From the NCBI GenBank assembly GCA_020353515.1, contig CP070695.1, positions 4,300,503 through 4,364,502 on the forward strand: a DNA stretch of 64,000 nucleotides, written 5' to 3'. Both the position numbers and the translations under genes were made by a program. The stretch is from Candidatus Heimdallarchaeota archaeon. GTDB taxonomy: Archaea; Asgardarchaeota; Heimdallarchaeia; Hodarchaeales; Hodarchaeaceae. Below the pieces are notes generated by a model. That model was not told the DNA's origin. It was given only the letters and a program-made list of their open reading frames with translations, and made no database searches. This document shows, piece by piece, positions 8,075 to 19,814 of this stretch. How positions within the stretch are numbered: position 1 is the first letter of the stretch; the number at the start of each line of letters is the position of its first letter.

Positions 8075-9307
8075 TTATGGCATCCAATCGAGCAATCGGG
8101 GATAGCCTATATCAACAAAATCTTTTTTGATTTCACGGATTTTTTCAAAAATTGGGACCTTAAGTCCTTGAAGCTGGAGATCAGAAATAATTTTTTCGAG
8201 TTTAGGCTGAATATTTTTAATGCCAGCAATCAGTCTAGAATACCCACTTATGTATATTTCAGTTAATATTTCATTAGTATAAAGTGGTAATTCTCTATTT
8301 AATCCGCCTGATAATACCTTTAATCCATCTTCAATCCCCAAACTGTTTGGATCACGGCAGATTTCTAATAATTTCTCAAAACATTCTTTATAAGGATGAT
8401 AAATATTTCGTGCTATTACGCCACGAAGATACATCTGTTTTGTCTGCTCTATATTAAATAATGAGAAAGGAATAGTTGTCATGTATTCCGTCATTAAAAG
8501 GTCTTGAGAATCGACAATAGACCCCGAGAGATCTTGACTTCTTTCATAAATATCTAACGGTAAAACAATGCCAGTAATTTCACGAAATGCATCAATTATC
8601 TCGCCAGGTGTTAGCCGGAATTGAGTATAATAAACACCTACTCCTGTTAACATAATAAAAGCCTCTCCAAGCGTTTCTTCGATTCCTGTCACTGCAAAAT
8701 CAGGTAAAAAAATGACATTATCGTGAATAATAGCATGCACTGGCTGTTTAAGGTAGAATCCTTTGAAATCTTCCCTTTCTATCATTTTACGCCATGATGG
8801 AATGAATAAGATCTGTTTCAAACTACCAAGATCAGTTTCAATAGGTTCTTGAGCTTTTTCAGCTTCTTGGCGTACTTTCATTCTTTCTTCTCTATACTTC
8901 TTTGTCTCTAATTCCTCACGACGTTTAATTTTTTCTGATTTAGTTTTTACAGCTCTATCAAGCTCTGATAACCGTGTTTGGATCTTTGATTCAACCTCTT
9001 TTAAAAAATCCTCCCGTAATTGAGAATATCCATGGTCAGTAAGATATGTTTTAAATTCAAGCAGGGATACGCCTGTCTTTGGGTCATATGGTCCTAATTT
9101 TTCGAAATACTTTTGTATCACTTTCAGAATTTTCTTCTCTCGAGATATTTCCTGTAATTCCTTTCTCAAAGTTAATTTATCTTCTGAATCATTTGATTCA
9201 TACATGGTCAAATTCCCACTATTTTCTTCCAAACTTGACTTCTTTCTGTAATTAAGAGCTTTTCGAGTATGAAAAAATATTCTTTGTATTAATGCTTTGT
9301 CACTCAC
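8075..9307 (-). CDS. unknown coiled-coil protein divergent from the GTPase
   Basis: I do not recognise this 410-aa protein. Residues about 45-165 are strongly charged and helical, likely a coiled coil (KSEKIKRREELETKKYREER). Residues about 175-410 look like a folded alpha/beta domain with hydrophobic strands such as VHAIIHDNVIFLPDFAV. There is no signal peptide or membrane helix. It starts at GTG 9307 and shares a 90-bp divergent promoter gap with the large GTPase at 9398. Shared control and a functional link, for example regulator or effector of the GTPase, are therefore plausible but inferred only from position. Confidence 0.7.
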   Translation of the reverse strand: MSDKALIQRIFFHTRKALNYRKKSSLEENSGNLTMYESNDSEDKLTLRKELQEISREKKILKVIQKYFEKLGPYDPKTGVSLLEFKTYLTDHGYSQLREDFLKEVESKIQTRLSELDRAVKTKSEKIKRREELETKKYREERMKVRQEAEKAQEPIETDLGSLKQILFIPSWRKMIEREDFKGFYLKQPVHAIIHDNVIFLPDFAVTGIEETLGEAFIMLTGVGVYYTQFRLTPGEIIDAFREITGIVLPLDIYERSQDLSGSIVDSQDLLMTEYMTTIPFSLFNIEQTKQMYLRGVIARNIYHPYKECFEKLLEICRDPNSLGIEDGLKVLSGGLNRELPLYTNEILTEIYISGYSRLIAGIKNIQPKLEKIISDLQLQGLKVPIFEKIREIKKDFVDIGYPRLLDWMP

Positions 9308-9397: not shown

Positions 9398-10690
9398 GTG
9401 GCAAATAAATTTAATGGTTTGGTCAGATTCAACCCCGATGGTATCAATTTGACAGCCATGGAAAACGCTGTGGTCAAATTAATATTAATTGGGGATGGAA
9501 TGTCTGGTAAAACCCAGATACTAATAACACTTGCTCAATTATTAATAGAATACCTTCAACAGATCTACTCATTATCCATCAATGAATCGGATTTCGATGA
9601 TCCAGCATTTCGTAGTTGGGCAGAAAGACGGGGTTTTTTTCTACGTTATGGCAACATCAAGTGGGATATTAGAACAATCAGTCTTGATACAGAAACGATA
9701 GGACTCGAGGATTTTGAATATGTCTTTCCCTACGTATGGAATGATACTACATACAAGATCAGACTTATAGGAAATGATGTGGGAGGTCAGAACATCTTCC
9801 ATCATTTTAGGGATGTCTTGGCGAAGATGGCTGGTCCTGATGATAATTTGATTGTTGTTTTCGATAAATCAAGGGAATTATCCTGCTATAACAGCATTGA
9901 ACATATAAAAAGAGTTCTTGGGATAATGACAGCAGAGAATGAATCCACCTTATCCAGGATAGCTTATTGTGGAAATAAGATTGATTTAGAGAAACACATT
10001 CGAGAAGAAGAATGGCGTGAAGGAGCACTCAAATCAATTATGGATAAAATTACTGATATTATGAACCATGGGAGAGGAGAGTATTCCTTTCCATCTTTAA
10101 TGGATATTCAAAAAGAAGAACAATGCGTGAAAGCTGATATCACGAACAATCAGATTACGTTCCCAGATTTAGAAGCGCTAATCTACAATGCTATCAGGGA
10201 GTTTGATAGCAAATATAAAACAGATTTAATGAGCGAGGTCAATACAAAAGCCCTTTGTAGAGAGATTTCAGCTCAGCTTGTCTATAACCAGAATGTCACT
10301 ATCCTTGAAGAAGGAAGCACCCAAGCAGAACAAGTGTGGGAAGATCTTCGTACAGTACTCTACCAAACTAGACCCCTAGCCGTTCAATACTCTGCTAGAG
10401 GTAGAATAAAAAAGGATGATGATTCAGCTCACCTTAGTCAAGTACGAGACAAATGGCGCAAATTTGGCTTGAATTTACCGATTACACCAGAAGATATCAA
10501 ATTTGCCCTTCATAGGACCGCCAACGCAGAGGAACTACTTAAGGAGATGGGAGATCGTTTTGACACCAATGCTTTATCTGGTGATGGTATCCTAAAAATG
10601 TTGGAATCTATAACCCAAGAAACCTTAATCAAACTCACACAACCGATTCAAAAGGAAAAACGAGTGAAACGAGAACTAAAAAGATTTTAA
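9398..10690 (+). CDS. extended Ras/Rab-like GTPase with large insertions (paralog A)
   Basis: Guanine-nucleotide motifs are clear: G1 GDGMSGKT (residues 32-39), G2 TIG with Thr100 in a Rab-like switch I (ETIGLEDF), G3 DVGGQ (127-131) and G4 NKID (193-196). A likely G5, TNAL-SGDG, sits near residue 391. G1 to G2 is about 60 residues instead of about 20. G4 to G5 is about 195 instead of about 30, so the 430-aa protein carries two insertions within one GTPase fold. The basic tail KEKRVKRELKRF may bind membrane or nucleic acid. The start is GTG 9398, nine bases after AAGGAG. It is convergent with the PolB2 gene (stops overlap by 4 bp) and paralogous to the protein at 18429. It should be an active GTPase switch; partners are unknown. 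Confidence 0.85.
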   Translation: MANKFNGLVRFNPDGINLTAMENAVVKLILIGDGMSGKTQILITLAQLLIEYLQQIYSLSINESDFDDPAFRSWAERRGFFLRYGNIKWDIRTISLDTETIGLEDFEYVFPYVWNDTTYKIRLIGNDVGGQNIFHHFRDVLAKMAGPDDNLIVVFDKSRELSCYNSIEHIKRVLGIMTAENESTLSRIAYCGNKIDLEKHIREEEWREGALKSIMDKITDIMNHGRGEYSFPSLMDIQKEEQCVKADITNNQITFPDLEALIYNAIREFDSKYKTDLMSEVNTKALCREISAQLVYNQNVTILEEGSTQAEQVWEDLRTVLYQTRPLAVQYSARGRIKKDDDSAHLSQVRDKWRKFGLNLPITPEDIKFALHRTANAEELLKEMGDRFDTNALSGDGILKMLESITQETLIKLTQPIQKEKRVKRELKRF

Positions 10691-12984
10691 ATATCCTGCA
10701 TCGCACGTAATGGCCAAAACGATTCTAGTGTTGGGTTTTCCTTCCTGAATTCAGGGGGGATTAAATTTTCATAAGCCCTAGTCACCAATTTTTGATATTC
10801 TTCAGCATCGTATTGTTCGTTTCCTTTTAAAAGCTGTTCTGCCTTCACACGCTTCTTGTAGTCCTTTGCATGAACATCTAGGATGAGATAACGGATTTTC
10901 ATCCCAGGTTCAACATTTACCCCTAAAGCAGCTAGCTGTTTAGCTGCTATCGCTTGTCGAGAATTGTTGACATATTCATCAGGAGAACGTGAGGGACGAA
11001 TTGCTATCAATAAGTCTTCTAGAGGAACATTTCCTATTTCCAGTTCCGTGCTACATTCCTTCATGAATTTCTCAGCCCGTTGGCTAGCTACTTGAAATTG
11101 TTCTCTTGATCTAGCTTTGGCTAAGATGTTTAACATATTCATTTGGAGTTTCTTGATAAAAGGAGGACTACTTGATTGGCGGATTTCGATACCACGAATC
11201 CGGAACGTTCCATCTGTTTTCAGGCCATAATACCTGTTTAATACCCCTATCCCAGGTTCATGACGACGGGGCAAGAAGATGATCCAGTGGTAATCGCAGG
11301 CATGTTCAACTGGTAGTTTGACAATATCCGCTACTTCTTGACGTAGCTTACGTACCTTGTCGAGCGGGACTGGTTCCTCCTCGGGATCTTTCACCCAAAC
11401 TGAATCTACTATGCCAGCTACAACCTCCAGCCCGTAACGCGAGGCGATTTGCTGAGTGAGAGTTAATCCATGCCTACTGTACGCTGAAATCGCTTCATGT
11501 GATTCAATACGTCCAAAGCGTGCGTTTCGATAACCTGTATATCCAAAACAAGTCACTAAAAGCCATTTAAGCACTTTCTGTCGTCGATCATAATCTGGAT
11601 GAACGTTTCGCTTTGCTTTATAATATTGACGTCGTCGTAGGATGTTTTTAAGTGAAAGACTGATGATACCAAGTCTTTTCGTGCAAACATGGTAATTGGT
11701 AAGAGGTACAAGCTGCCTTTTGTCGTTCGTACAACACGTACAGTTAACAGTTTCAGGAGAAACATTCCTATGAACCATAATATTCGGGTACATTGACAGA
11801 AAATCGAGTTCAACCACATTTGTGTGGAATCCAACCCAGGGGGAAAACACAAGCCCTCCCACATCGGTTTCCATGGTCCAAGCAGGACGGAATGACTCTG
11901 GATCCGCCTTCCTCGCGGGAATTAGTATGTCTCGGTAATAAGCGGTTCGCATCTGTACGGCGGACAAAGTAGTCCCTATGGTACCACGAGCGATTCTTTG
12001 CGGGTCACTACATCCTAATCGCACTAATTCATGAATACCTGCTATATTTCCGTCTTTCCACATAAAACTATTTCCCACGTCATAGTGGTGACGACCCCCA
12101 TCAAAGTAAACGCCGTGCTGTGAGTAAAATATTCTTCCATAAGACATGTAGCTGTGACCCCGACTCCTTTCATCCTTCTGTCGCACATAGCTTCTCAAGG
12201 GACGGAAGCCGCGACCAATACGCAGATGCCCCTCCCCAACCCGTGTAGAACGCTCTGCGATAATCGGAACGAAAGTATCCCCTCCTCGTGTAAATAGGAG
12301 ATCAGGATTAACTTGTTGGACATATCGAATGCTGTTACGTATGATTTCTGCTTCTGTCTGTTCTTCGAAGACAATTGGTTCTTCTTGGTCAATTACTGAT
12401 CTCCGTATCAAGATCTTTGTTATTTTTCCCCGAGAGAGGCTTGAGTCTTCGAAGAAGGGTTGGAACCAGAGCACACGAAATGGTACAGGTTGATAATCCA
12501 TTTGAGTATAGGACTCGAGCAGCTGCCAGTTCTTCAACTGACCGTTGCTGATATCGATCTTTGCATAAGCGTAAGGGAAAAGTTCAGTCTGAAAGCAAAA
12601 CTGTTGCCACAAGCTCAGATCTGCATTGTGGAGATACTCGCCCCAGTACTTTCGTAAGTCTTCATAGGTAGCTCGGATTCGACGAGGGTTGACTCGAATA
12701 CAAAACACAGATGACGGTTTTTGGTTGTGGATAGAAAGGTACTTCGACCTTTTTTCTATTCTTTCAATGTGGGGATGACTCAACAATTGTTTTTCGATGT
12801 AAGGATCAGTCTTCGCGAGGAAAAATTCGGCTGTGAGGGGATAAAAGGCTTGAATTGCCTTCTTCTTAGTGATCCAATGCGTAGTGACCCCCCAATCGGC
12901 AGCTTCGACTTCATGGAGCCATGCGCGGATCCGAGACATGTTAACAGTTCCAATAAGTTGTTTAAGTCTCCCCCTTGTGATCAC
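10687..12984 (-). CDS. PolB2-type B-family DNA polymerase with altered motif C
   Basis: Motif A is ELDFLSMYPNI (about residue 391), keeping the catalytic Asp. Motif B is KWLLVTCFGY followed by a conserved YRNARFG (about 471). Motif C reads AGIVDSVWV (about 523), so the first Asp of the usual DTD is Ile and only one Asp remains. Loss of canonical catalytic residues is known for the archaeal PolB2 family; Sulfolobus Dpo2 of this family is reported to act in error-prone damage tolerance. No clear 3'-5' exonuclease motifs were seen in the N-terminal part. It is the last gene of an operon after the small coiled-coil gene and the inactivated RadA-like gene. The GTG start at 12984 overlaps the upstream gene by 23 bp; ATG 12939 is an alternative. 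The region looks visibly richer in G+C than the flanking genes. Confidence 0.85.
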   Translation of the reverse strand: MITRGRLKQLIGTVNMSRIRAWLHEVEAADWGVTTHWITKKKAIQAFYPLTAEFFLAKTDPYIEKQLLSHPHIERIEKRSKYLSIHNQKPSSVFCIRVNPRRIRATYEDLRKYWGEYLHNADLSLWQQFCFQTELFPYAYAKIDISNGQLKNWQLLESYTQMDYQPVPFRVLWFQPFFEDSSLSRGKITKILIRRSVIDQEEPIVFEEQTEAEIIRNSIRYVQQVNPDLLFTRGGDTFVPIIAERSTRVGEGHLRIGRGFRPLRSYVRQKDERSRGHSYMSYGRIFYSQHGVYFDGGRHHYDVGNSFMWKDGNIAGIHELVRLGCSDPQRIARGTIGTTLSAVQMRTAYYRDILIPARKADPESFRPAWTMETDVGGLVFSPWVGFHTNVVELDFLSMYPNIMVHRNVSPETVNCTCCTNDKRQLVPLTNYHVCTKRLGIISLSLKNILRRRQYYKAKRNVHPDYDRRQKVLKWLLVTCFGYTGYRNARFGRIESHEAISAYSRHGLTLTQQIASRYGLEVVAGIVDSVWVKDPEEEPVPLDKVRKLRQEVADIVKLPVEHACDYHWIIFLPRRHEPGIGVLNRYYGLKTDGTFRIRGIEIRQSSSPPFIKKLQMNMLNILAKARSREQFQVASQRAEKFMKECSTELEIGNVPLEDLLIAIRPSRSPDEYVNNSRQAIAAKQLAALGVNVEPGMKIRYLILDVHAKDYKKRVKAEQLLKGNEQYDAEEYQKLVTRAYENLIPPEFRKENPTLESFWPLRAMQDI

Positions 12985-13267
12985 TGCCTGTATTCTGCAG
13001 TCTCTTCTTTAACCTGGCTAGTTCGGCTTTCAATTTTTGAATTTCGGAGTGTTGTCCTATTAACATTGACATCACGACATTATCAAAGATTATGGGGCGT
13101 GTATTTGCAGACGCAGCATCTGCTAGTTGGAAGGCATATAGCCAAAGATCTGTGAAACTGGTTCGATATGGTTCACGTAAACGGTTTGCGTAATGTACCA
13201 GCCAGAGAGCACGCTCTTTTTCAAGCATTCTACGGTAAGATGGTAAAGTTCTGCCCATAAGAATCAC
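12962..13267 (-). CDS. small helical protein of the PolB2 operon
   Basis: This protein of about 100 aa has an N-terminal MGRTLPSYR block, a conserved-looking centre (NTRPIIFDNVVMSMLIGQ) and a C-terminal coiled coil of about 25 residues (HSEIQKLKAELARLKKRL). Small archaeal proteins beginning MGRT-[IL]-PS are, as far as I recall, a widespread uncharacterised family, which argues for starting at ATG 13258 rather than the GTG at 13267. The GTG overlaps the preceding stop (GTGA). The gene sits between the RadA-like and polymerase genes with overlaps on both sides, so the three are surely co-translated. It is likely an adaptor bridging the other two; that role is inferred. Confidence 0.75.
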   Translation of the reverse strand: MILMGRTLPSYRRMLEKERALWLVHYANRLREPYRTSFTDLWLYAFQLADAASANTRPIIFDNVVMSMLIGQHSEIQKLKAELARLKKRLQNTGSDHKGET

Positions 13268-14073
13268 CAGAATTGAGTTAAGGGTACTTGATGCTGTTCT
13301 TCCCTTTCTGCTGTGTGCGAGAGTTTTATCTGAACTACTGGCCCACCTTTTTGGACAGTAAAGAGAAGTGTGTAGTTCTGTCGATTACTGTCAGGCGTTA
13401 CTGCCACTCGAATGACATCAGTAGCCGAATGCGAAAGAAACGTACCTCCAAGCGCTTTGTGCTTTGAGTGAGGCGCATTTTCTGCAGTTGTTATTCCTAC
13501 CAAGTCATATTGCAAACTAAGGCTCTTCAACTTCCCCACTGCCTGTGTCAGCTCGAGAATGGAGGATGTTGACGTTAACTTGTCGTATTCTAGATACTGG
13601 AGCGCTTCTTTTGATAGATAAAGGGACGAAATCTGAGGTACTAAAACAATACGAATACGGGGGTTCGTATCAATCAGTCGAGGAAGTTTCGTGTAAAGAA
13701 TTTCGGTCATTTGATGATAATTAAACGCACGTGATAGTTGAATCCTATCGAGTATTCCCAGTGGATCCAAGCCATGCTTTCTTGCTTCAAGTGAGATCTC
13801 GAAGTATGGAAATAGATTCGCTCCATCAACAAAGGCAAGATCAACACTAGGGTTGCTTATCAGCAGCGATACCGTGAGCTGAGTAATGAAAGCACGTAGG
13901 ATTGAGTTTGGCAAATCTCCCTGAATCAAAGCCAAACTGCCTGGATATAGCACGAATGCGTCATCTAGGTGCGCCATACCAAGTCGAAGGCATCGTTGCA
14001 GCTGCTGATGTCGTACATCAGCTGAAACAAAATTGTCGGGAAGGTCTTCATGATTCCGATAATCTTGGATCAT
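13264..14073 (-). CDS. inactivated RadA/RecA-like protein
   Basis: The 269-aa protein follows the RadA core in order but lacks its ATPase residues. Where RadA has a Walker A loop after GS-x-TEI, this has GSLALIQGDLPNSIL (residues 45-59), without GKT. Residues 101-122 (GLDP-x-GILDRI followed by LSRAFNYHQM) match the RadA segment GLDP..VLDNI..ARAFN..HQ. The Walker B position is IVLVPQISSLY (142-152), with Pro in place of the Asp. Residues GGTFLSHSATDVIRV match RadA GG..LAHSAT. It should therefore keep the fold but not hydrolyse ATP. As first gene of the PolB2 operon it probably guides the polymerase to lesions or filaments, much as ImuA does in bacterial mutasomes; that is inference. Confidence 0.8.
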   Translation of the reverse strand: MIQDYRNHEDLPDNFVSADVRHQQLQRCLRLGMAHLDDAFVLYPGSLALIQGDLPNSILRAFITQLTVSLLISNPSVDLAFVDGANLFPYFEISLEARKHGLDPLGILDRIQLSRAFNYHQMTEILYTKLPRLIDTNPRIRIVLVPQISSLYLSKEALQYLEYDKLTSTSSILELTQAVGKLKSLSLQYDLVGITTAENAPHSKHKALGGTFLSHSATDVIRVAVTPDSNRQNYTLLFTVQKGGPVVQIKLSHTAEREEQHQVPLTQFW

Positions 14074-14519: not shown

Positions 14520-17500
14520 TTGAATAATGACAAAGCTAGACTGTTAAAGGCAATTTGTGATCACCTCAAGCTTGATGACATACCACAGAGCATGGTTTCC
14601 CGTAGATTAACAGTTTTCAAAGCATTTGAAGAAAATGAAGATAAGTTTCATGGGGAAGAATTTCGGCAATGGTTTTGGAATATTTATGAGGAAGGGCATC
14701 CAGAACTCACTGAAGGGAAAATTACCCCCTCATTGATATTTTCATTCATTAACAGTAATTATGATCTAGTAGAAGAAGCATTAAAGCTTGATTCACTAGA
14801 TGAAGCTCTGCAAACTCACGAAGAGATGGCATCAGAGATCTCCGAGGAGTTTAAAGCTATAATTTTGAGAAATAAAACTCAACGAATTCTTGCGGAAGAT
14901 TCCCTGTTTATGAAAAAGCTCCTTGGGAAAGCTAAATCCGAAATATTCCCCTATCCAGAATTTGAAAAAAGGATCCTCAATCATTTTGAAAAAATGCTAG
15001 ATATCTCAGGAAGAGAACTGCTCGAAGAGGCCTCAAAAGCTTATATATGGAATGTTTACAAGGAAGATGAGACAAAGTGTTATAGGCTAATTTTTGAGGA
15101 ATTCATCAAGCATAAGGAGACATATGAGAAGTTAGGGGTGAATTTCAGTTACCCTGAGATGTCTCTTGGAGGGGGACGAAATGTTTCTCAGATTATGGAG
15201 GCGATTCATCGATCTTTTACGCAAAATGTTGGTGGAATTCTAGGATTAAGAAGGATCATTAGCATTGCAAACAGAATAGCGGAGGTGGGCTTTACCGAAG
15301 AAGAAATTATCAACTTCTTTACTGCTTATCTCAGTGGTGGACTAGACTCAACCTTATCTAATCCTCCTGATGGTCATTCATACTTCATTGAAGTAATAAA
15401 AACCTATGATTATGATTTTACAACAAATCTTGACAATTTAGCACCAAAGACGGAATTCAATCCAAAAGAATTGGAAACAACTTTGGATAATTTCTTGCGG
15501 ATTTTAATTCGTATAAAGATAGCTGAATGGTCAAAAAACGTACCTATGGGTGAAGAAATAACGATTATTGACTTAATCACAGAAATTCAGAAAGATGTCT
15601 TAAATCAAATTGAGGATGAAGAAAAACTTCTTCCATTTTTTGAGATGTTTCAAAAAACAGACAAAAATATCCTTGAAACAACTATCACTCATTTTTCAAA
15701 AGAATTAGCTTATTCATATATTCTCAGATTGAGAAGAGGAGGAGTAGAATCCACATTACTTAATTCCTTCAAGATAATGAACCTCAGTGGGGCATCAAAG
15801 ACTATTGGTAATCAAATCTTTGATATAAAAAAGTTTTATGAAACTTTGTATCCTGATTCGTGGCAAATAAAGTTTTATGATGAGTTTATACTTGATATCG
15901 CGAGTAAAGGACTTTCAACATCCTCCAAGCAAACAGTACGAGAACGTTTGAATCTCCTTGTCCAAGAAAGTCCAGGATATTCTGGATCTTCTGCTTATAA
16001 ATTAAAGAAGATAGAACTAGATGTTATTTTTGAAAACTTGAAAATTAATGTTCCTTTAGTACTTCCAGATTTTGGAACAGCAGAGGAAGCTCAAAAATAC
16101 ATTAGTCGAACTTTTTCCATTATTCGATCTGTATTAAGTAAAGTCTGGATAAAAAAAATACTTAGAACAGGATTTGAATTATATATTGAGTCACCTGTAA
16201 AACGTGTTTGGCAAAATGAAATGGAAGATCTGTCTCGGGAACTGGTTAGCTATTATCAGAATGTTGTAACTGTTTTAGGGAGAAAGTCTTCAGAAATTAA
16301 TGAACTTGTTGTTGAAGGACTTAGGGATTCATTAAGTGGGTTATATTTCGTTGATGAAAATGTTAGAGATTCAGAAGTCTTTAATATCTTTGTGAAATTA
16401 CCAGAGAATCCAATTCTTACCGATCGGGATGATGTGGAAAATTATCTGGATTTTGTTTTTGATGAAGGCAAACTCATAATCAACAAAGTATTAAGTAGGG
16501 AAGTTAAGGAGGAAATAGAAAGAAAAACATTTGACCAAGAGATTGAGGAACGAATTTCTCTTGAAAATACTGTAATAGATTGGTTTGTTCGAGCAAGTCA
16601 ATATTATAATTCAATAATTACTGAACTAATTAGTTTAGAAAAGACCACAGATCCCAACGATACGTTATTGAAAACCATTTATGGTGGAACTATATTTCTT
16701 GTAGAAGAATCAATGAAATCTCTCCTTCTAAATCAGAATGAGAAAATTAATAAAGCAAGTTTCCTTAAAATCTTCTTTTTAAAACAAGTTGAAGCACTTA
16801 GAAGCTCTTTTTCTCAATTAAAATTTGATTATAACACTCAAGCAATTATAAATTACGTATTAGCCCAAATTAGATTATGGGATAGGGTGTTTAGACTCCG
16901 AGGAATCCTTTCAGATCTCGAAGCTGATAATAGAATGCGACGAGCGTTAGGGCCAAGTGTTTCAGATAGTCATGAAGATTCTAGAATTGCTAGTTCTCTT
17001 GTTGAGAACCCTGGTTTAAGAGGCCTTATTGCTAGAGAATTTATGGCAGACTGGATAAAAAACTGGGCGAATTCAGTTATAGAGCTTACTGAATCTTATC
17101 TTGAAGAAGTTCTTCCAAATGTTGAGGAAACAGAGAAGGAAAGTTTTGAACAAGAAGTTCTTGGACTGTTATTTAATGGTACAGGGAGAGATGATATTAG
17201 AAATTTTATGGTACCACTAATTGTAGGAAATCTTAAGAAACCCCTAGGTTATGAGACAAGTCCCCTACCACCAGAATTCTCGAAATATAGATACGAGGTA
17301 TTTGCTGAAGCTGTTAAATGCGATTCTCAACTAAGTATATATTTTCTATTTTCAAATTGGGTAGAGAAAGAGAGGAAATACTTTAAGAAACAAGTAGTCA
17401 GTGATTTGGATTTCGTTATATATCAAGAAAGTCAAATTGTCAGTTGTCGACGGTTATTAGGAGCAACACAGGAATTTACTCTGAGTGACGTTGTAAAAAA

Positions 17501-18428
17501 GGCTACTGGCTTAAGCTTATCAGGACTTACCCTCCAAACTGTTGTATTTCAATTAGGTGAGAAGGAAATCTATTCAGCAGCTTCTTATGTTGAGAATCCT
17601 TTTGAAGGTTCAATCGTCACTGGTTTGACTTTGGAACTGATTTCAAAAGAAAATATTCCAATGGGACTGATTCATCCGTTAGCAAAAAATGCTTCAGAAG
17701 CAATTGCAGGCTTAATAGAAAGAAATCAACTGAATGCTTCCGAACCAGACATTCTCTTCAATGCTGTGCTTCAACAGTTGCTGAATGAGGCAAGATTAGT
17801 TTTACTAAAGGATGCTGGGACATTAAGTGAAAGAATAGCAACAGATGAAATGGCACCACAAATAGAGCGTGATGTCTCCCGATGCAATCTAAAGGTTACA
17901 ACTGCATATAAGATGTACTTTAAAGACGATTTACAAGATCAAAGTTACCGCTTGGAGGAAGTTGAATTTTATGGTGAGAAGCTTGACAATTTTGGCTTAT
18001 TTGTACAGCTCATAATACCATTTCTTGAACCAAGTCAAATCATAAGAAAGCGTCTGAAAAAAGATCACCAGCTCTTAGATTATTTAGAAGTCCCCAAGGG
18101 GGAAGAAATCCGAGTTTTTCCTTCTCTTATCATATTTGATGACAACGATAGATATAAAGTTGCTTTTGGAACATACTCATCTCAGGAAAATGCATTATAT
18201 GTTCTTGTTGCAGAAGAAAATGATGAATCGAAGATGGGGTTAAGAACAATCCAATATCTTCTAAAAACAAGAGACTTTGAAGAGCTATCAGAAGATTTAG
18301 GATTATTGCCTCTCCCCAGACTTAATCAGAGTCTACCCCTAAACAGGATTAATGTAATGAAAGAGAAGAGGGGGGAGTATGTAATTGATTTCGAGCTGAT
18401 TAAAAATATTTCATTAGGAGCGATCTAG
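14520..18428 (+). CDS. unknown 1302-aa protein coupled to the extended GTPase
   Basis: I do not recognise this protein. It reads as soluble and mostly alpha-helical throughout, with many Glu/Lys-rich helices and no signal peptide or transmembrane segment. A Gly-rich turn lies near residue 220 (SLGGGRNVSQ). The C-terminal part (about 1120-1290) looks like a mixed alpha/beta domain (EEIRVFPSLIIFDDNDRYKV). No catalytic motif or P-loop was found. The start is TTG 14520, nine bases after AGGAG. Its stop codon (18426-18428) abuts the ATG of the GTPase at 18429, and the GTPase ribosome site TAGGAG lies inside this gene, so both are translated together. A regulator, exchange factor, scaffold or effector of that GTPase is the natural guess, from context only. 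Confidence 0.8.
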   Translation: MNNDKARLLKAICDHLKLDDIPQSMVSRRLTVFKAFEENEDKFHGEEFRQWFWNIYEEGHPELTEGKITPSLIFSFINSNYDLVEEALKLDSLDEALQTHEEMASEISEEFKAIILRNKTQRILAEDSLFMKKLLGKAKSEIFPYPEFEKRILNHFEKMLDISGRELLEEASKAYIWNVYKEDETKCYRLIFEEFIKHKETYEKLGVNFSYPEMSLGGGRNVSQIMEAIHRSFTQNVGGILGLRRIISIANRIAEVGFTEEEIINFFTAYLSGGLDSTLSNPPDGHSYFIEVIKTYDYDFTTNLDNLAPKTEFNPKELETTLDNFLRILIRIKIAEWSKNVPMGEEITIIDLITEIQKDVLNQIEDEEKLLPFFEMFQKTDKNILETTITHFSKELAYSYILRLRRGGVESTLLNSFKIMNLSGASKTIGNQIFDIKKFYETLYPDSWQIKFYDEFILDIASKGLSTSSKQTVRERLNLLVQESPGYSGSSAYKLKKIELDVIFENLKINVPLVLPDFGTAEEAQKYISRTFSIIRSVLSKVWIKKILRTGFELYIESPVKRVWQNEMEDLSRELVSYYQNVVTVLGRKSSEINELVVEGLRDSLSGLYFVDENVRDSEVFNIFVKLPENPILTDRDDVENYLDFVFDEGKLIINKVLSREVKEEIERKTFDQEIEERISLENTVIDWFVRASQYYNSIITELISLEKTTDPNDTLLKTIYGGTIFLVEESMKSLLLNQNEKINKASFLKIFFLKQVEALRSSFSQLKFDYNTQAIINYVLAQIRLWDRVFRLRGILSDLEADNRMRRALGPSVSDSHEDSRIASSLVENPGLRGLIAREFMADWIKNWANSVIELTESYLEEVLPNVEETEKESFEQEVLGLLFNGTGRDDIRNFMVPLIVGNLKKPLGYETSPLPPEFSKYRYEVFAEAVKCDSQLSIYFLFSNWVEKERKYFKKQVVSDLDFVIYQESQIVSCRRLLGATQEFTLSDVVKKATGLSLSGLTLQTVVFQLGEKEIYSAASYVENPFEGSIVTGLTLELISKENIPMGLIHPLAKNASEAIAGLIERNQLNASEPDILFNAVLQQLLNEARLVLLKDAGTLSERIATDEMAPQIERDVSRCNLKVTTAYKMYFKDDLQDQSYRLEEVEFYGEKLDNFGLFVQLIIPFLEPSQIIRKRLKKDHQLLDYLEVPKGEEIRVFPSLIIFDDNDRYKVAFGTYSSQENALYVLVAEENDESKMGLRTIQYLLKTRDFEELSEDLGLLPLPRLNQSLPLNRINVMKEKRGEYVIDFELIKNISLGAI

Positions 18429-19814
18429 ATGAATAACCTTTCTTTAACAGGATTTCAACCAAAGAATATTGACTTGACTGAAATGGTTGATGTTGATGTA
18501 AAGAAGGTTGTGATAATCGGCGATGGAATGTCAGGAAAGACTCAAACACTAATAACGTTTGGTAAAAAGATTCTAGTTTATCTTCAGAGAATATATTCTG
18601 CTCGTTCAATTTTAGAAAGGAAATCTTCCAAAGATACTGGATTAGAAGTCGCTCTGGAAACTTTCGGAGATCAATACACTGTGGATCCAGCATTTCAATC
18701 TTGGGCTGAACGTCATGGCTTTCTTATACGATATGGTAACAATAAATGGAATATAGTGTCAGTATCATTAGATACTGAAACAATAGGTTTTGAAGATTTT
18801 CAATTCATTTTCCCCTACTTTTGGGAGAATAAAACATACAGAATCAACTTATTTGGAAGTGATGTAGGCGGACAGAATATCTTTGATCACTTCAGGACTG
18901 TTTTAGGAAAAATCGCAGGAGCTAAGGATATTTTACTTGTTGTTTTTGATAAATCTAGGGCTTTGTCTTGTTGGAATAGCATCGAGCAAGTCCAAAGGGT
19001 TGTGGGGGATAAAATTTCGGAACGAAAATTAGGTCAATCAAATATTCCACGAATCATATACGTGGGTAATAAAATTGACCTAGAAGAACACATCAACAAA
19101 CAAGAATGGCAAAATGGCGTCTCAAGTTCAATAATGAGGAAGATCACTCAAATTTCAGATTATAGGAAAGGAACATATCAATTACCTTCATTAGTTGGGA
19201 GGAAAGGATTGGAGAGAACCTTTCATTTCAAAATAGACAATGGATTTCTTCATTTCCCTGATTTTGAGGCATTAGTTTACAATGCAATTAGAGAGGCTGA
19301 TCCAAACTATAGAACTCATAAAATCATGACAGATGTTAATGCAAAGGCAATTGCTAGGGAAATTTCTGCTCAATTTGTGTTTCAGCGAAAAATTGAGGAG
19401 AAAGAAACAGATAAAGGAACAGAAGATGCAAAATCTGTTATAACTATTTTAGAAGACTTCGGAAAGTTATTATTTCAACGTAGACCTTTAGCAATGCAGT
19501 ATTCAGGAGGAATCGAACAAATTTACGAGACTACAAGTGAAAGTAGTTCATTTGGACGAGTTCGCGTAAAATGGATCGATTATGATGTAAACTTCTATCA
19601 TCTTAAGAGAGAAAATATAAAATTTGCTCTTGAAAGCGCAGCCAATGCAAAAAATCTTTTGACTACTGATATGGGGGAAATTTTTAATACAAATGCATTA
19701 ATAGGAACTGGAATCATGGCCTTATGGGATTCGATTATTCAAGAGAAGCTGAAAGCAGCAACAGCTTTAAAAATAGATAAAAAATCTAAAAAAAGAAAGA
19801 TTAGAAAGTTCTAA
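18429..19814 (+). CDS. extended Ras/Rab-like GTPase with large insertions (paralog B)
   Basis: This 461-aa paralog of the GTPase at 9398 has the same motifs: G1 GDGMSGKT (31-38), switch I TIG with Thr118 (ETIGFEDF), G3 DVGGQ (145-149), G4 NKID (214-217) and a displaced G5-like TNAL-IGTG near 422. The segment before switch I is longer than in paralog A (extra KSSKDTGLEVALETF), and the G4-G5 insertion is about 205 residues. It ends in a very basic tail (KIDKKSKKRKIRKF). The ATG follows directly on the stop of the 1302-aa gene with TAGGAG 8 bases upstream, so it is translationally coupled. A TrmB-like regulator follows after 58 bp. It is likely an active GTPase in a complex with the 1302-aa protein. 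Confidence 0.85.
   Translation: MNNLSLTGFQPKNIDLTEMVDVDVKKVVIIGDGMSGKTQTLITFGKKILVYLQRIYSARSILERKSSKDTGLEVALETFGDQYTVDPAFQSWAERHGFLIRYGNNKWNIVSVSLDTETIGFEDFQFIFPYFWENKTYRINLFGSDVGGQNIFDHFRTVLGKIAGAKDILLVVFDKSRALSCWNSIEQVQRVVGDKISERKLGQSNIPRIIYVGNKIDLEEHINKQEWQNGVSSSIMRKITQISDYRKGTYQLPSLVGRKGLERTFHFKIDNGFLHFPDFEALVYNAIREADPNYRTHKIMTDVNAKAIAREISAQFVFQRKIEEKETDKGTEDAKSVITILEDFGKLLFQRRPLAMQYSGGIEQIYETTSESSSFGRVRVKWIDYDVNFYHLKRENIKFALESAANAKNLLTTDMGEIFNTNALIGTGIMALWDSIIQEKLKAATALKIDKKSKKRKIRKF

Follow-up and report, generated by a model that had tools for sequence, protein, structure and literature searches.

The window analysed here is a stretch of 64,000 nucleotides from the 4.94 Mb genome of an Asgard archaeon (order Hodarchaeales). 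It carries two genes for putative Ras-like GTPases, an orphan copy at 9398-10690 and a paralog at 18429-19814 that is paired with a giant gene directly upstream, and these are the only insert-bearing copies in the genome, against approximately 60 Ras-family matches. The features of the three genes, all on the plus strand, are as follows.

9398-10690, plus strand: probable Ras-like GTPase with two inserts, orphan copy (430 aa; GTG start with GGAG upstream)
9491-9514, plus strand: G1/P-loop GDGMSGKT, residues 32-39 (hhalign of residues 18-60 against the Ras profile of the same genome, E 1.5e-10)
9530-9679, plus strand: insert 1, residues about 45-94 (modelled as an extended helix 1, a short helix and a strand)
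9686-9703, plus strand: switch I/G2 DTETIG, residues 97-102 (ETIG at 99-102; T100 invariant)
9776-9790, plus strand: G3 DVGGQ, residues 127-131
9974-9985, plus strand: G4 NKID, residues 193-196
10070-10552, plus strand: insert 2, residues about 225-385 (modelled as a beta-hairpin followed mainly by helices)
10565-10588, plus strand: probable G5 TNALSGDG, residues 390-397, followed by helix 5 at 398-414 (placed by hhalign, hmmsearch tiling and an excision test)
10640-10687, plus strand: basic C-terminal tail of the orphan GTPase
14520-18428, plus strand: giant gene, candidate partner (1302 aa), its stop codon directly before the ATG of the paralog
18429-19814, plus strand: paralogous GTPase, paired copy (461 aa)
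18519-18542, plus strand: G1 of the paralog
18861-18875, plus strand: G3 of the paralog
19068-19079, plus strand: G4 of the paralog
19689-19712, plus strand: probable G5 of the paralog

Divergently oriented from the orphan GTPase lies a gene for a 410-aa protein of unknown family (8075-9307, minus strand), which gave no Pfam match above the cut-off. Three genes form a PolB cassette (10687-14073, minus strand), encoding a 765-aa DNA polymerase of family B, which is divergent, a protein of 101 aa and a Rad51/RecA-like protein. Motif C of the polymerase reads GIVDSVWV, the first Asp of the usual DTD being missing, and the gene order of the cassette is kept in at least five congeners; we take the cassette to resemble inactivated PolB2-type operons. 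The polymerases of two other genomes, G004 and G007 (L027:1-3377; G007:C251), are interrupted close to residue 480 by a large insertion that keeps the frame and is absent from the window copy. Their open frames are 1288 and 960 aa long, with the match split at 477-481, and the insertion is possibly an intein.

The two GTPases share 50% identity, and with the Pfam Ras model they scored 23.4 bits (orphan copy) and 25.3 bits (paralog), the curated cut-off being 21.6. A sequence-only reading of this DNA had described G1, switch I (ETIG), G3 (DVGGQ) and G4 (NKID) of the orphan copy as intact, with a G1-G2 spacing of about 60 residues and a G5-like TNAL-SGDG about 195 residues after G4. All of this held on measurement, the distance from the P-loop Lys to the switch-I Thr being 62 residues and that from G4 to G5 being 197. 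The same reading had regarded these loops as short in ordinary Ras-family proteins, and ordinary small GTPases of the same genome indeed gave 19-20 and 28-41 residues, respectively. Its statement that both distances repeat in the paralog was correct as to similarity but not as to identity, with 81 and 207 residues measured there; insert 1 is 19 residues longer in the paralog and insert 2 approximately 10 longer. Across the complete family members the two distances were 62-104 and 189-207 residues.

A search of 228 Asgard genomes, a step which the earlier reading had proposed, identified 13 family proteins in six genomes, all belonging to the order Hodarchaeales, with one protein cut by a contig end. 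A scan of contigs with a single sequence returned no match, and an alignment query returned 11 loci, which appear to correspond to members already known. A wide spread among Asgard archaea was rejected, as matches outside the order cover partial core segments only, and four longer open reading frames inspected there encode compact GTPases of the ordinary kind in fusion with other domains. Judged by these sequence matches, the subfamily is lineage-specific to Hodarchaeales among the genomes searched. The gene tree contained two well-separated clades, corresponding to the genus of the window and to the other family of the order. Several paralog clades lie inside the window's genus and are partly resolved, 5 of the 10 inner branches being open; the orphan copy at 9398 groups with an orphan copy of genome G003. 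The C-terminus of most members is a basic run, to which many add RF or KF.

A mobile element or viral origin was rejected, since viral contigs held no relatives and the chromosomal neighbourhood of the paired copies is the same in G000, G004 and G007; Foldseek against viral models returned Ras-type matches only. A defence system was likewise rejected, the sole PADLOC match being a weak P-loop match to GajA at 14.4 bits.

The giant gene beside the paralog, which the sequence-only reading had passed over, is the best functional clue to the GTPase family. A gene of approximately 1300 codons is located directly 5' of the GTPase in five loci from five genomes (the window, L025, L027, L029 and L034), and at all five the giant stop and the GTPase start abut or are a few bases apart, although in L027 an overlapping start is another possible reading. 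The giant gene was detected in five of the six GTPase-bearing genomes and in none other of the 228. In the sixth, G003, three GTPase copies were found and no giant was detected; this genome is 74% complete and one of its copies is at a contig end. Seven of the 13 GTPase copies lie away from the giant gene, as does one further copy at a contig edge, so that not all paralogs depend on the partnership. Four congeners (G002, G008, G010 and G011) carry genes for PolB, the 101-aa protein, the Rad51/RecA-like (RadA-like) protein and a DUF72 protein in order, and there the RecA-like and DUF72 genes have neither the giant nor the GTPase between them. This clean joint absence at a syntenic site indicates that the two genes come and go together, by gain or by loss; the co-variation spans few genomes of one order. 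We consider it rather likely that the giant protein is a physical partner of the GTPase.

The giant protein gave no convincing match in Pfam, NCBIfam or PDB sequences, and its AF2 model was poor (pLDDT 43). Within that model, the C-terminal 150 or so residues are predicted to run in the order b-b-a-b-b-b-a-a clearly once, and a second, looser run lies upstream. The top Foldseek match was a chain of the mouse CPLANE-RSG1 complex, and the top 50 also held CPLANE, Fuzzy-Inturned, Ragulator, dynein-array and Rag/LokiRag entries, every one with an E-value above 0.04. The giant could be narrowed to a tandem-longin-type exchange factor or platform, like Mon1-Ccz1 or Fuzzy-Inturned, a sub-version of the explanation we prefer. 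The order of elements and the CPLANE, Fuzzy-Inturned and Ragulator-type matches point that way, whereas the very low model confidence, the high E-values and the absence of a profile match to PDB sequences or to six local sequences chosen by eye as longin-like speak against it, and we regard this version as possible though unlikely.

Longin-like proteins, as judged by eye, were also seen at two other loci. In G004 a gene for a 248-aa protein (L027:10927-11670; no Pfam match) lies directly 3' of the GTPase and is absent from the window site. Several paralogs of approximately 465 aa (L030:1173-5601 and 18093-19493) sit beside ordinary small GTPases, next to an orphan insert-bearing GTPase.

The sequence-only reading had proposed a Ras/Rab-like G domain with two insertions and a C-terminal G5, and this arrangement was kept in all 13 homologs. 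One N-terminally truncated row aside, the key residues of G1, the G2 Thr, G3 and G4 were invariant; within G5, T390, A392 and G397 were invariant and N391 and G395 nearly so. The features of the Ras superfamily, namely G1 GxxxxGK[ST], a switch-I Thr, DxxG(Q) and NKxD, were all present, as was a G5 of the form [ST]A[KL] between strand 6 and helix 5, and the compact uninterrupted domain of approximately 165 aa was absent from the family, which has the two inserts instead. Foldseek searches with the GTPase model returned best matches that were almost all Rab, Rho or Ras, and the best PDB sequence match was Rab28 (2hxs; E 6.4e-10).

Profile comparisons located the C-terminal part of the fold. Residues 376-418 aligned with strand 6, G5 and helix 5 (template 146-177) of the Ras profile built from the same genome, with E 8.7e-5, whereas residues 222-264, at the usual place of G5, gave no strand-6/G5 match (E 0.27, wrong place); three other insert segments gave no sensible match. 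The Pfam Ras match never ran through in one piece in the family, and the Ras HMM of the same genome tiled the proteins colinearly, with pieces at the P-loop and over G2 through helix 4; some members had a further piece over strand 6, G5 and helix 5. When residues 226-382 were excised in silico, a single Ras match reached the end of the model. The mean score of the best Ras piece rose from 25.7 bits for intact proteins to 32.2 without insert 2 and 48.2 without both inserts. Excision blocks starting anywhere between 200 and 232 scored about equally, so the test locates the C-terminal match and not the exact insert boundary. Since the C-terminal TNAL-SGDG matches strand 6, G5 and helix 5 and the stretch after G4 does not, the fold appears to be split by two inserts. 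It is very probable that the family has a doubly split Ras-like G domain with G5 at the C-terminus, and TNAL-SGDG would pack against the guanine as G5 does.

A confident AF2 model of the orphan protein, computed from the 13-sequence alignment (pLDDT 79.6, pTM 0.81), followed the Ras order through helix 4 (204-223), then placed a hairpin and helices at 228-381, a strand at 387-389 and a helix at 398-414. Part of this model would suit a G domain that closes normally after G4, with the C-terminal 200 or so residues as a separate domain and TNAL-SGDG coincidental: strand 228-233 comes right after helix 4, in the usual place of strand 6, and most Foldseek alignments end at approximately 180-200 columns. 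That strand has no G5-like motif after it, however, and the profiles speak against a normal G5 soon after G4, the outcome against which the earlier reading had set its proposal, with the match falling at the correct template position in 376-418 only. The conservation of the G5 residues noted above argues further against normal closure, as do the matches of the Pfam EF-Tu model in L034 (152-418) and L028 (159-394), both below cut-off, which run across insert 2 to the C-terminus. We regard normal closure as very unlikely.

The two inserts differed in constraint. Insert 1 was variable in length, at about 43-85 aa, whereas insert 2 was near-constant at 154-171 aa and present in every member. Between the two main clades, insert 2 showed 26% identity, compared with 14% in helix 4 and 13% in insert 1, and 13 of the 42 fully invariant positions of the family fell in insert 2, including P232, F255, E259, Y263, N282, R288, E289, RPLAxQ at 325-330, and R350. 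Insert 2 gave no match to Ras or EF-2 profiles and no convincing domain in Pfam. Its invariant residues and its higher identity relative to helix 4 indicate that insert 2 is likely a functional domain; the chances that it is a regulatory or partner-binding element, close to the built-in regulatory or effector domain suggested by the earlier reading, are about even. Given the invariant arginines, a built-in arginine finger is conceivable as a speculation.

Passive or selfish insertion, be it intein-like or by low-constraint loop growth, would leave insert 2 with no switch function. Insert 1 does resemble variable loop growth (50-92 residues in complete members, with the low between-clade identity given above), but none of the members lacks insert 2, its length and invariant residues are those of a constrained segment, and it gave no Hint or intein match, so that this explanation is very improbable for insert 2.

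Taken together, a doubly interrupted Ras-like subfamily in which insert 2 has a coupling role and the giant is a dedicated partner is, in our view, a reasonably likely explanation. The family quite probably binds and hydrolyses GTP, and it would do so as an active switch. Insert 2, being joined to the guanine-binding G5 loop, would couple the nucleotide state to partner binding; alternatively, partner binding may be coupled to nucleotide release through insert 2. With the G5 loop mechanically joined to insert 2, partner binding there could alter the affinity for guanine. The giant would serve the paired copies as their dedicated partner, whether as effector, scaffold or exchange factor. Orphan copies, that at 9398 included, would be paralogs reusing the giant or other partners. 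A more specific form, in which the doubly interrupted GTPase with its G5-attached domain is activated by a giant multi-longin exchange factor, as a two-component switch of Hodarchaeales that is an independent or ancestral counterpart of the eukaryotic tri-longin RabGEF-Rab pairs, is distinctly unlikely.

Asgard genomes contain dozens of small GTPases without assigned regulators. According to a published survey, small GTPase genes of the Asgard archaeon MK-D1 generally do not share operons with genes for roadblock, longin or TRAPPC3 proteins (PMC10933270), which makes their partners hard to guess. The GTPase and candidate partner described here are adjoining genes that share presence or absence at one site, and they therefore offer a directly testable pair. 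A domain inserted between G4 and G5 of a Ras-like fold would show a compact switch gaining built-in control beside its guanine-binding loop. The order of the window counts among the archaea most closely related to eukaryotes (see PMC10307638).

With Ras/Rab proteins (PF00071), including the 60 or so of the same genome, the family has in common G1, the switch-I T, the DxGGQ form of G3, the NKxD form of G4 and strand 6/G5/helix 5, and it differs in its two large inserts and in its length of approximately 410-460 aa versus 170-220. In G-alpha proteins a helical domain lies between G1 and G2, and the family might be taken for an archaeal G-alpha relative with insert 1 as that domain, given the insertion between G1 and switch I, the DVGGQ motif and weak Pfam matches (PF00503) in five of 13 members (best E 2e-4), but this is extremely improbable, as the inspected matches fell far under the cut-off (best among those listed 21.0 versus 48.8 bits), two of the three covered mainly the P-loop end, insert 1 is shorter than that domain, varies in length and is largely unconserved, a second insert lies between G4 and G5, the Arg three residues before the switch-I Thr is absent (SLDTETIG has D97 there, relative to T100), and Ras, Arf and Roc outscore G-alpha.

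The analogous G4-G5 position is occupied in EF-G by the G' subdomain of 90-120 aa (PMC3150367). This likeness to EF-G/EF-2 is one of position: insert 2 is approximately 160 aa long and sits in a Ras-type, not a translational, G domain, sequence comparison detected no relation between it and the EF-2 of this order, and the RGITI switch I and DTPGH G3 of translational GTPases are absent from the family, which has DTETIG and DVGGQ. As a separate observation, EF-2 matches in Hodarchaeales (L113 being the EF-2 of the window's genome) are split at model positions of about 215-236 by approximately 74 residues. Rbg1/DRG likewise has a folded domain inside the G-domain sequence, the S5D2L domain (PMC3510508), although its site is between G3 and G4 and its G domain is of the Obg family.

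Inturned-Fuzzy is a GEF for Rab23 (PMC6864590). Tri-longin RabGEFs of this type, Mon1-Ccz1 among them, are a possible analogue of the giant only, hinted at by weak Foldseek matches from an unreliable model and with no sequence relation detected. The earlier reading had called the architecture of the GTPase one it did not know. This stood for the combination, in that a limited search of open-access literature found no description of a Ras-like domain with both inserts, and it did not stand for the single inserts, for which EF-G G' and G-alpha offer precedents.
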